NCBI RefSeq assembly: GCF_001192795.1
Contig: NZ_DF968179.1
Location: 270,311-334,310 of the forward strand
From: Flexilinea flocculi
Lineage (GTDB): Bacteria > Chloroflexota > Anaerolineae > Anaerolineales > Anaerolineaceae
Length of the DNA: 64,000 nucleotides
Reading direction: 5' to 3'
Shown here: piece after piece, positions 2,884-56,470 of the stretch
Position numbering within the stretch: the first letter of the stretch is position 1
Layout: the number at the start of each line of letters is the position of its first letter
Position numbers and translations under genes: made by a program
The notes under the pieces: generated by a model
Told to the model about the DNA's origin: nothing
What the model saw: only the letters and a program-made list of their open reading frames with translations
Database searches by the model: none

Positions 2884-3264
2884 AGAATCTCCTTTTTTTT
2901 ATTTATTCCTGAAAAATGAACCAATAAATTCAAAATACAAATAGACCCTCTGACCAGGTGAAAATTAAATATATATCACATCGCAAACCGCAGTTTGCCG
3001 GTTCAGAAAGGTAATTATTGTTTTAAACGAATTCTGATAATTTGAACGGTGGGGAGACTATTGGATTGTAAAGTATTGAACAGTAAAAGATCAGAGAATC
3101 GGGATTCCCCTTTTTCTCTCAGAGCAACGTCACTGACGGTCTGTATATTTTTTACTGTCATTTTCCCTATAAACCTTTAATAAAACCAGTTTAGTTTACA
3201 TATTTATTGAATGAATGTCAAGGTTTGCACATAGCAACCAGACTTGGAAACGCTGGAAAGATGA
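2884..3264. other. Intergenic region upstream of iorA
   Basis: AT-rich spacer between the divergent iorA and GNAT genes. It holds the unassigned iorA promoter. An 8-bp inverted repeat ACAGTAAA/TTTACTGT sits at 3080 and 3151, about 60 bp apart. I see no coding potential. The right part may be the worn left flank of the hairpin element at 3265. Confidence 0.4.
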
Positions 3265-3315
3265 TTTGTAATTGTGTTGTTTTTACATGGAGTGTAAAAA
3301 CAACACAATTACAAA
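3265..3315. repeat. Long perfect hairpin, degenerate member of the palindromic element family
   Basis: The arms 3265-3287 and 3293-3315 are perfectly complementary over 23 bp around a 5-nt loop (TGGAG). The arm contains TTGTTTTTACA next to the loop, as in the family's TTTT-CGC loop border. The outer flanks are too worn to show the usual CAGYAATTCGAAATA ends. It is followed by a T- and C-rich stretch, as in the plus-orientation copies. Confidence 0.7.
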
Positions 3316-3382
3316 CTTTCTCTCTTTTTTTCTATTATCTTCTTAACTTTTCGAATAATTATCCATAGATTATCAGCTTTAC

Positions 3383-3499
3383 CAGTAATTTGATTTATGA
3401 AAAGAAATCATTGTTGTACTGATAGCTTCGCGCGAAACCATAAGTACAACAAATTTTCTTGATTGATTCAAAAAGATAAATCCAGATTTCGAATTGCTG
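3383..3499 (+). repeat. Palindromic intergenic element, full copy
   Basis: A 117-bp copy starting CAGTAATTTGATTTA and ending GATTTCGAATTGCTG, which are imperfect inverted ends. The central stem TTGTTGTACT/AGTACAACAA (10 bp, 3411-3420 and 3442-3451) encloses a CGCG-containing loop. The right arm carries the family sequence GATTGATTCAAAAAG. It ends about 70 bp before the GNAT start. Confidence 0.85.
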
Positions 3500-19706: not shown

Positions 19707-19829
19707 CAGCAATTCGAAATACGGATTGACTTTTTGAATATAGAATGAAAGTTTGTTGTTCCTATGGTTTTGCACGAAACGCAAAACCATAGGATCAACA
19801 AAGAATACTTTTCGTATTACGAATTACTG
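19707..19829 (-). repeat. Palindromic intergenic element, full copy (second of a tandem pair)
   Basis: A well-preserved 123-bp copy, from CAGCAATTCGAAATACGG to ATTACGAATTACTG, with the long arm GATTGACTTTTTGAATA on the left. The inner stem CCTATGGTTTTGC/GCAAAACCATAGG (19761-19773, 19781-19793) continues outward as TTTGTTG/CAACAAA after a small mismatch. It is in the same orientation as its neighbour, 63 bp away. Confidence 0.92.
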
Positions 19830-35159: not shown

Positions 35160-35301
35160 CAGTGATTCGAGAATAAACATACTTTTCAAATATTGCGAGA
35201 AAGTTTGTTGTTGTTTTGTTTTGTACTGAAACTACAAAACAAAACAACAACATTTTTTTTGCAGATTGATTCGAAAGTCTGGTTCATATTTCGAATTGCT
35301 G
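35160..35301 (+). repeat. Palindromic intergenic element, full copy with 20-bp perfect stem
   Basis: It starts CAGTGATTCGAGAATA immediately after the anti-sigma stop and ends CATATTTCGAATTGCTG. The arms 35206-35225 and 35233-35252 match over 20 bp around CTGAAAC. The arms are made of TTGTTTTG-type repeats. At 142 bp it is the longest copy. The rest of the 35159-35530 spacer is the glgP leader with no clear promoter. Confidence 0.9.
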
Positions 35302-38597: not shown

Positions 38598-38648
38598 GAA
38601 TCGTATTATCCCTCTTTTTCAAACATTTAAAAATCAGCAGAAAAAAAA

Positions 38649-38690
38649 GAGCCATTTATTTACCTGTACAGGTGAAAAATGGCTCTCATT
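38649..38690 (-). terminator. Terminator of hcp
   Basis: AGAGCCATTT pairs with AAAATGGCTCT around a nested ACCTGTACAGGT palindrome. On the minus strand it is followed by a T-run (TTTTTTTTCTGC). It lies about 30 nt beyond the hcp stop. Confidence 0.85.
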
Positions 38691-38718
38691 TTAAATAGAT
38701 GCTCGCGTTATCGCAGTA

Positions 38719-40356
38719 TTATCCACAAAAAATCTTTACGTCTTCTTCCACGGTGGAGATACCACTGATGCCAAATGAGCTGACCAGGACATTGGCGACA
38801 TTGGGAGAAAGGAATGCCGGGAGGGTTGGTCCCAAATGGATGTTTTTGATCCCAAGCGCTAATAATGCCAACAACACAATGACCGCTTTTTGTTCATACC
38901 AGGCGACATTGAATTCAATCGGCAAATCATTGATATCTGCGGCCTGGAAGATTTCTTTCAGTTTCAGCGCAATAATTGCCCAGGAGTATGAATCGTTGCA
39001 TTGTCCCGCATCCAGAACGCGCGGAATACCTTGAATATCTCCCAGTGGAAGTTTCAAATAGCGATATTTTGCACATCCGGAGGTGAGAATCACAGTATCT
39101 TTTGGCAGTGCTTTTGCAAAATCCGTGTAGTATTCTCGAGATTTCATGCGACCGTCACAACCGCTCATGACGATGAATTTCTTGATGGCGCCTGATTTGA
39201 CTGCTTCAACCACTTTTTCAGCAAGCGCTTCCACCTGGTGATGCGCAAAACCACCGATTATTTCACCGCTTTCAATTTCAATCGGTGGCTGGCATGTTTT
39301 TGCCAGATTGATGATATCGCTGAAATCTTTTTGTTCACCGATTTCACCTGCGATATGCTTACATCCGGGATATCCTGCAGCACCAGTTGTGAACAATCTG
39401 TCTTTGTAGCTGTCTTTCACTGGAACAATGCAGTTGGTAGTCATCAGAATTGGACCGTTGAAGCTTTCAAATTCTTCTTTTTGTTTCCACCATGCATTCC
39501 CATAATTACCGGCGAAATTGTCATATTTCTTAAATGCCGGATAATACTGTGCGGGCAGCATTTCGGAATGGGTATAAACGTCCACACCCGTTCCTTTCGT
39601 CTGTTCCAGCAGCATTTCAAGATCGCGCAGGTCATGTCCTGAAATAAGAATACCCGGGTTTTTTCGTACACCGATATTGACTTTGGTAATTTCCGGATTC
39701 CCGTATGTGGAAGTGTTTGCTTCATCCAGCAAAGCCATGCCGGCAACGCCCTGATTTCCGGTCTCAAGCGTCAATGCGATCAGCTCATCAACAGACAGAG
39801 AGTTGTCTCGGATTTTGACTAATGCGCTTTGAATGAACGCATCGATTTTTTCATTTTCTTTACCAAGCACATTGGCATGTTTTACATAAGCTGCGAGACC
39901 TTTCAATCCATAGGCAATCAGCTCACGCAAACTGCGGACATCTTCATTTTCTGTCGATAAAACGCCAATCGTTTTGGCTTTTTCTTCCATTTCAGATAAT
40001 TCACCGGCATCCCAGAGGGCTGCTTCTGAAAATTTGGATTTGTCGGCTACATGAGCAAGCAGTTCCTTCTTGATAGCCGATGTGTTGCGGATTCTTTTCA
40101 CAATTGCATCTGCATCGAAATTGGCATTTGTAATCGTAGTGAAAAGATTCGTTGTGACCAGATGGTTCACTTTTACGTCCACTTTTTTCCCTTCATTACG
40201 CAGTGCGGTGGTGACCTCGGATAATCCGGATGTAACATAGCGGAGAAGATCCTGTAGATTTGCGACCTGCGCATTTTTGCCGCAGACGCCTGCTTTTACA
40301 CAGCCTTTATTCCCGGCAGTCTCCTGGCATTGAAAACAAAACATTGAATTTTCCAT
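38719..40356 (-). CDS. hcp: Hybrid-cluster protein (hydroxylamine reductase)
   Basis: This protein has 545 residues from ATG 40356, with AGGAG 5 nt upstream; a longer in-frame ATG at 40437 lies in the promoter. The N-terminal cluster ligands are [15 protein letters not shown] and VCGK (C-x2-C-x8-C-x5-C), as in class I enzymes. Hybrid-cluster ligands occur in GHDLRDLE, the TNCIVP region, GYPGCKHI and SGCAKYRYL. The family reduces hydroxylamine in vitro and acts in nitric oxide detoxification and S-nitrosylation in anaerobes. Monocistronic, with its own terminator. A CRP/FNR-type palindrome sits at the promoter, fitting HcpR or FNR-like control. Confidence 0.96.
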
Positions 40357-40428
40357 CATAGCTCCTGTTAGCATGTTTTCCTGTACAAAACTTGTTAGAC
40401 GATTTATTTTTTCATATTCGTTATTGCC

Positions 40429-40471
40429 ATTATACAAAAAATCCTTTGCTTATTATGTTGTTTCTACAACA
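40429..40471 (-). promoter_or_regulatory. hcp promoter with CRP/FNR-type operator
   Basis: On the minus strand the -10 box TATAAT covers 40434-40429, predicting a start near 40422. The palindrome TGTTG-TAGAAA-CAACA (40471-40456) has the 16-bp half-site spacing of CRP/FNR regulators. It is centred at 40463.5, which is -41.5 from the predicted start, the class II activator position. No TTGACA-like -35 is present, as expected for an activated promoter. The same bases could also be a remnant stem of the neighbouring repeat element. Confidence 0.5.
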
Positions 40472-40520
40472 ATAACCAACGATCTATCAGAATTGGATTT
40501 TGTAACGGCGGAAAGAATCC

Positions 40521-55064: not shown

Positions 55065-55186
55065 TATCAATTCGAAATAAGAATTAACCTTTCGGACAAA
55101 AAGAGGAGATTCGTTGTTCTTATGATTTTTCGCTCGGCGTAAAACGATAAGAACAACAAGGCTTCTTTTTATATTTCGAATTACTG
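55065..55186 (-). repeat. Palindromic intergenic element, full copy
   Basis: TATCAATTCGAAATAAG at the left, ATATTTCGAATTACTGG at the right. The arms 55113-55123 and 55147-55157 (GTTGTTCTTAT) match over 11 bp, then mismatch, then TTTT/AAAA around CGCTCGGCG, the conserved loop. Confidence 0.88.
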
Positions 55187-56346: not shown

Positions 56347-56470
56347 GTAATAATTCGAAATATGGATAGAAGTATTTGTTGTTATTATCGTTTTACGCGA
56401 ACCGCAAAACGATAATAACAACAAATTATCTTGATTGATTTGAAGAGTCAACCTATATTTTTAATTGCTG
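56347..56470 (+). repeat. Palindromic intergenic element, best-preserved copy
   Basis: The left end is GTAATAATTCGAAATATGG and the right TATTTTTAATTGCTG. The arms 56375-56394 and 56406-56425 (TTTGTTGTTATTATCGTTTT) are perfectly complementary over 20 bp around ACGCGAACCGC. The right arm TTGATTGATTTGAAGAGTCA keeps the family pattern. A left-end fragment, CAACAATTCGAAATATGG, follows at 56489. The remaining 56250-56577 spacer is otherwise empty. Confidence 0.93.

Follow-up and report, generated by a model that had tools for sequence, protein, structure and literature searches.

A palindrome upstream of hcp in Flexilinea flocculi is very probably an operator for an HcpR-like CRP/FNR regulator

Very probably, an HcpR-like regulator binds the palindrome upstream of hcp in Flexilinea flocculi; this regulator likely switches on nitrosative-stress defence genes, and many other anaerobic bacteria share the promoter layout. 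We consider it highly probable that this palindrome serves as operator for an activator of the HcpR type, a CRP/FNR protein of 225 residues, that it occupies the class II position centred at −41.5, and that it acts to raise hcp expression under nitrosative or related redox stress. The computations establish the site, its geometry and uniqueness, the linked targets and the conservation; binding, the direction of regulation, the signal and the transcription start are what we infer. Regulation of this type is ordinary and has long been predicted for HcpR in general; what is new is its place and an operator whose sequence departs from the consensus letters readable in print. The window, that is, the whole stretch of 64,000 nucleotides that was analysed, contains the following features at hcp.

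38719..40356, minus strand: hcp, hybrid cluster protein/hydroxylamine reductase, 545 residues (NCBIfam hydroxylamine reductase, 844.8 bits with a cut-off of 367; Pfam Prismane, 585.2 bits)
40362..40366, minus strand: ribosome-binding site AGGAG, read by eye
38642..38692, minus strand: hairpin 3′ of the hcp stop (inverted repeat I22), with a T run behind it on the hcp strand (by eye); probable terminator
40456..40471, minus strand: operator TGTTGT-AGAA-ACAACA, centre 40463.5; predicted HcpR-type CRP/FNR site on the basis of the exact-unit genome search
40429..40434, minus strand: −10 box TATAAT, separated from the operator by 21 bp; gap and hexamer also present in the relative G044
40422..40422, minus strand: predicted transcription start, an A on the hcp strand, deduced from the −10 box

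On the hcp strand the operator reads TGTTGTAGAAACAACA (40471-40456), which is TGTTGTTTCTACAACA on the plus strand (40456-40471). The preliminary description of this DNA had noted a TGTTG-N6-CAACA palindrome before hcp; it is present, and its arms are longer, 6 bp each (TGTTGT-N4-ACAACA). The TATAAT reported at 40434-40429 was re-read there on the minus strand as a perfect hexamer. The operator 16-mer and this hexamer are separated by 21 bp, so that by arithmetic a start at the predicted position 40422 places the operator centre at −41.5, in agreement with the earlier claim. Reading of the hcp promoter revealed no −35 box, likewise as described before. Because the hcp stop is followed by the probable terminator hairpin and T run, hcp looks like a single-gene transcript.

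TGTTG-N6-CAACA has one exact match in the window. When one mismatch was allowed, four window matches were obtained against a mean of 2.78 in shuffled sequence, and the short motif alone therefore says little. Genome-wide, the motif with 5-bp arms occurs at 11 places (reversed control, 1; ∼4.9 expected), and the form with 6-bp arms at three of these 11, where ∼0.22 would be expected (Poisson P ∼0.0015, calculated by hand); expected counts were derived from a first-order model of the fetched sequence stretches. All three copies with 6-bp arms precede functionally linked genes. With both strands of the 3.51 Mb searched, the combined pattern YGTTG-N6-CAACR-N21-TANNNT matched exactly at three places and its reversed control at none. 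These matches and the regulator gene are located as follows.

C1:310739-310781: exact operator-21-TANNNT unit before hcp, in the window
C2:587883-587925: exact operator-21-TANNNT unit before the gene of an FrdX-like ferredoxin
C3:1566944-1566986: exact operator-21-TANNNT unit between the regulator gene and a divergent cupin gene of 121 residues
C3:1566258-1566932, minus strand: regulator gene, CRP/FNR protein of 225 residues (Pfam cNMP_binding, 60.4 bits, and HTH_Crp_2, 34.5 bits, both over the cut-off)

The search for the same motif upstream of related genes, which the preliminary description had proposed, thus finds the exact unit at hcp, frdX and the regulator gene. With up to two mismatches, the operator-plus-−10 pattern gave 138 forward and 139 reverse matches in the genome, compared with 154 and 144 for the reversed control; since this is no excess, we claim no regulon members beyond the three exact units. 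Six of the eight other exact palindromes with 5-bp arms lie inside ORFs of 242 residues or more, and the palindrome at C1:406760 lies in no ORF of at least 80 residues. The eighth, at C3:1969380-1969395, reads TGTTGATCCAACAACA.

The window also harbours a family of hairpins (3256-3324, 3411-3452, 19752-19802, 35206-35252, 55100-55170 and 56374-56426). Among the 25 of 31 pairs listed, these have TTGTTGT/ACAACAA-like stretches in the arms or at the arm tips, arms of about 20-34 nt and loops of 0-7 nt. A similar TTGTTGT/ACAACAA hairpin is located upstream of the regulator in G044 (L026). We rejected the idea that the operator is part of such hairpins: the window's one exact TGTTG-N6-CAACA lies outside them among the 25 of 31 pairs listed, and the palindrome is hence not confined to the repeat stems, a case for which the preliminary description had allowed.

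A single protein with a cNMP-binding domain was found in the genome search, namely the 225-residue regulator. It contains both the sensor domain and a Crp-type HTH, which assigns it to the CRP/FNR superfamily, and it is a relative of HcpR, the kind of homologue that the preliminary description had suggested looking for. A second HTH_Crp_2 match, at C2:611309, is just over the cut-off and has no sensor domain. Through the exact operator unit common to all three, the regulator is linked to hcp and frdX in its own genome, which is the linkage expected of an HcpR. An NCBIfam search of the regulator gave no model naming HcpR and no equivalog fit, and general CRP/FNR models scored far below the cut-off. 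The nearest PDB sequences are, in this order, Lmo0753, Porphyromonas gingivalis HcpR (9day) and 1o5l, which we take to be the HcpR2 protein TM1171. The recognition helix of the regulator, DRSALSNEM, carries Arg180, Ser181 and Asn185 (CRP numbering according to our own alignment).

The ferredoxin gene encodes 239 residues from the first start and 231 from the likely Met, with two 4Fe-4S motifs at the N terminus. The name FrdX-like reflects its position in relatives, where it lies next to the regulator and hcp, and the gene description for Clostridioides difficile, not a family model (PMC12915319; this and the other papers are cited for the portions of their text that were accessible). The −10 of this frdX, TAAACT, is weak (4/6 versus TATAAT), and its operator overlaps a mechanical ORF of 86 residues on the opposite strand.

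We searched 147 genomes of the family for the regulator, and 18 of them for hcp and frdX: the 14 with aligned regulator rows and four more of the same genus. The site precedes all 14 frdX genes that were matched over nearly their full length (13 genomes). The frdX operators are of the TGTTGT or CGTTGT type in F. flocculi (G000), G044, G043, G038 and G049, of the CGTTGG type in G039, and of CGTGG/TGTGG types in G042, G045, G046 (two copies) and G047; G111, G059 and G130 display the printed HcpR2 motif GTAACnnnnGTTAC at frdX together with Pro at position 181 of the regulator. By a lax limit (at least 4/6 versus TATAAT), a hexamer is present at gap 21 in 11 of the 14 family frdX promoters; for frdX of G043, G038 and G049, a gap of 20 gives the best hexamer.

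In G044, which belongs to the same genus and has an hcp 94% identical to that of F. flocculi, the operator, the gap of 21 and TATAAT are all kept before hcp. Nine of the 18 family genomes have an hcp match. None was found in the other nine, including G042, G045, G046 and G047; because these four possess frdX with the site, hcp is not the core target. No such operator was found upstream of hcp in G038, G039 and G043. In G111, G059 and G130, hcp lies close behind frdX (in G111 with a cupin-like reading frame in between, by eye), and in G049 the contig ends. Given these contexts, operator control of a free-standing hcp is indicated only for F. flocculi (G000) and G044. About 95-125 nt upstream of hcp in G039 (L058) and G038 (L059) there is a CGTTGG-N4-CCAACG palindrome followed by a T run; it looks like an operator-mimicking terminator hairpin, which a motif scan would mistake for a site. 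In the tree, the regulators of two genomes of the same genus, G045 (L033) and G047 (L034), group with Lachnospiraceae proteins, apart from the clade of the F. flocculi protein, a hint that the module was transferred horizontally.

With an alignment of eight FrdX proteins as the query, we retrieved frdX loci from named genomes and kept the best 80 of 502 confirmed. As the best 80 of 502, these loci favour near relatives of the query; since the alignment excludes the regulator, their choice does not select for the regulator helix. They are mostly from Bacillota, with a few from Spirochaetota, Synergistota, Kiritimatiellota and Myxococcota. Among the best 80, at least nine of the ten operator letters are present within 300 nt upstream of frdX at 60 loci (34 with all 10), compared with one of 80 for the reversed pattern; a good site is absent at 20. 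At a gap of exactly 21, 49 of the 60 site-bearing loci have a hexamer of at least 5/6 versus TATAAT (mean 5.07 of 6), whereas all other gaps between 10 and 39 give means of 0.38 to 4.08, with the maximum at gap 16. Upon removal of promoters at least 70% alike, the gap-21 hexamer of at least 5/6 persists in 19 of 27; the best hexamer in these 27 dissimilar promoters is at gap 21 in 15 and at gap 16 in six (ties assigned to the smaller gap). The best −35 scores of the 60 promoters are no higher than those of a shuffled control. Judged from these promoters, the geometry of operator, 21 bp and −10 is widespread in this regulator branch.

A CRP/FNR relative of the regulator is encoded at 65 of the best 80 loci, that of C. 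difficile included, and 55 of these 65 are divergent, with their start less than 400 nt from the frdX start (one of the 65 has no placed start). hcp was seen in the fetched flank of 19 of the 80 loci, some flanks being short, and cupin relatives were seen at four of the 80. Taken with the hcp matches in nine of 18 family genomes, this makes the association with hcp a loose one. At the C. difficile locus (L114) the operator TGTTGCATATGCAACC is followed after 21 bp by TATACT, and the L114 regulator falls, together with that of F. flocculi, inside a supported group of 75 of the 79 tree rows (99/99). Of the best 80 loci, 49 have both a regulator and a good site; in these, all 13 loci with a Gly182 regulator carry A at base −3, and none of the 35 with Ala does. 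A specificity code between base −3 and residue 182 is not claimed: all 13 are in one supported clade of the tree and may represent one event.

At the F. flocculi regulator gene, 12 bp separate the operator from the start codon that follows it, and the operator lies 14 bp downstream of a −10 of sequence TATACT; on the opposite strand, TACAAT at gap 21 faces the cupin gene. The latter (121 residues) is faced by the divergent promoter that in relatives serves frdX (L013 9933-10192 and 10192-10557). No opposite −10 at 14 bp was seen by eye in the F. flocculi promoters of hcp and frdX. Forty-six of the best 80 loci combine a good site with a divergent regulator. In 36 of them a TATAAT-like hexamer (at least 5/6) on the regulator side ends 14 bp before the operator; a second register, at 19 bp, scores in 32 of the 46, so the −10 of the regulator gene could be in either. 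The operator is 12-16 bp from the regulator start codon in 24 of the 46 (starts were picked by rule, and negative distances are probably wrong starts). Both registers place the operator downstream of the regulator's −10; the regulator should therefore repress its own gene, and from the same site it should activate the other direction.

The opposite −10 boxes, at distances of 14 and 21 bp from a shared operator, adjoin so closely that polymerase would serve one direction at a time. We tentatively propose that the junction between regulator and frdX, here between regulator and cupin, is a one-operator direction switch, that its sensor is a metal or Fe-S site formed by Cys28, Cys119, Cys123 and His126 rather than heme, and that hcp carries a copy of the output half; we regard this combined picture as less likely than not. 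In the unbound state the regulator gene would fire; the signal-bound regulator would block that promoter and recruit polymerase in the opposite direction.

P. gingivalis HcpR, in which Met68 is a heme ligand, activates hcp in response to nitric oxide (PMC12750200). The Met68 position, which we located through the neighbouring residues named in that paper, is Lys64 in the F. flocculi regulator; among the 65 relatives from the best 80 loci it is Met in none and His in three. The complete set of Cys28, Cys119, Cys123 and His126 is present in 55 of these 65 and in 11 of the 14 family rows. Because Met68 is replaced while these four residues are kept, a cluster or metal site formed by them is a fair guess. 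The set is incomplete in 10 of the 65, and eight of these 10 regulators (L108, L125, L130, L140, L152, L153, L154 and L157) have a good frdX operator. The set is accordingly not needed for site recognition, and the evolution of the sensor seems uncoupled from that of DNA recognition. An AlphaFold model of the relative L146 (alignment of 34 of the 65 regulators) has a mean pLDDT of 93.4. In a fold search P. gingivalis HcpR ranks second and third, which at a TM score of ∼0.5 and an rmsd of ∼12 Å supports the fold class only.

The earlier proposal that a CRP/FNR-type protein, HcpR or FNR-like, controls hcp gains support from the regulator gene with the same operator, from the frdX operator and from conservation elsewhere. 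In the mechanism we favour, a stress signal, most likely nitric oxide, would alter the sensor domain of the regulator. The dimer would then bind TGTTGTnnnnACAACA at −41.5, contact polymerase and bring it to a promoter with a perfect −10 and no −35. Expression of hcp and of the FrdX-like ferredoxin, and perhaps of the cupin, would rise together, and binding at the regulator gene would repress it and thereby limit the regulator's own supply. The same regulator and operator might, however, respond to a signal other than nitric oxide, the protein being a general sensor of redox or Fe-S status with the FrdX ferredoxin as its core target and hcp as a later recruit. Genomes that have frdX with the operator and no detected hcp would fit such a sensor, as would Lys64 at the heme-ligand position, the absence of Met from it among the 65 relatives from the best 80 loci, and the four residues kept in 55 of them. 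His at that position in three of the 65 is, on the other hand, a possible heme ligand, and the tolerance of C. difficile to reactive nitrogen species depends on its hcpR (PMC12915319), whose protein belongs to the same tree. Moreover, nitric oxide also attacks Fe-S clusters, so that the two readings may be one. We regard a signal other than nitric oxide as somewhat unlikely.

It is improbable that the site represses hcp, with an Fe-S regulator leaving the DNA when damaged by nitric oxide. Such a model is stated for Desulfovibrio HcpR2 (PMC5701242), and the conserved cysteines of the regulator relatives would fit a cluster, but a site centred, as predicted here, at −41.5 of a promoter that has a good −10 and lacks a −35 represents the activator arrangement; this is conserved, and a repressor does not need a fixed gap of 21 bp. 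Least credible of all is a palindrome that arose by chance or belongs to a TTGTTGT/ACAACAA hairpin, with hcp controlled by an unrelated regulator such as an Rrf2 protein. The genome does encode one Rrf2 protein over the cut-off, and enrichment of the motif with 5-bp arms is by itself mild (11 places versus ∼4.9 expected). Against this stand the three exact units at three linked genes, with none in the control, and their conservation in other genomes; the printed NsrR motif, gATGyAT-N5-ATrCATc, is also unlike the site (PMC1274295).

Activation by the HcpR-like regulator, our preferred reading, places what was only a palindrome in a small regulon whose parts can be named. It also provides a readable operator for the Ser181 HcpR branch, which is common in the sampled Clostridia, and suggests that this branch may sense stress through cysteines and a histidine and not through the heme methionine of P. 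gingivalis HcpR. The layout of two promoters around one operator is precise enough for direct laboratory testing.

None of the titles and abstract openings listed in searches of open PMC papers reports the operator of F. flocculi; figures or RegPrecise could carry its letters. In the class II promoters of E. coli CRP and FNR, the operator is centred at −41.5 and has half-sites TGTGA or TTGAT. The hcp promoter resembles them in its predicted operator centre, in the presence of a −10 and in the lack of a good −35, and differs in its half-site, TGTTGT. The printed HcpR2 motif, GTAACnnnnGTTAC, goes with Pro181; the Ser181 species C. thermocellum and C. difficile are exceptions inside HcpR2 with different motifs, the letters of which are in a figure (PMC1274295). 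As in HcpR2, a CRP/FNR protein is linked to hcp and frdX, and the palindrome has a 4-bp centre; in contrast to HcpR2, the F. flocculi operator is TGTTGTnnnnACAACA and residue 181 is Ser, whereas G111, G059 and G130 have both the HcpR2 motif and Pro. For Desulfovibrio HcpR2 an Fe-S cluster is mentioned alongside the repressor model (PMC5701242), and Bacteroides HcpR is said to bind heme (preprint PMC13370916). P. gingivalis HcpR, the second-best PDB sequence match of the F. flocculi regulator, does not have the Cys119-Cys123-His126 stretch, which falls in an alignment gap. The hcpR of C. difficile controls both hcp and frdX during nitrosative stress (PMC12915319); from its neighbours, we take the L114 regulator to be this published HcpR. 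The L114 regulator is divergent from frdX, hcp lies behind frdX, and the Cys/Cys/Cys/His set is kept. The L114 operator, TGTTGC...GCAACC, differs from that of F. flocculi at −3 and in one outer letter, and whereas hcpR, frdX and hcp lie together in C. difficile, they occupy three separate places in F. flocculi.
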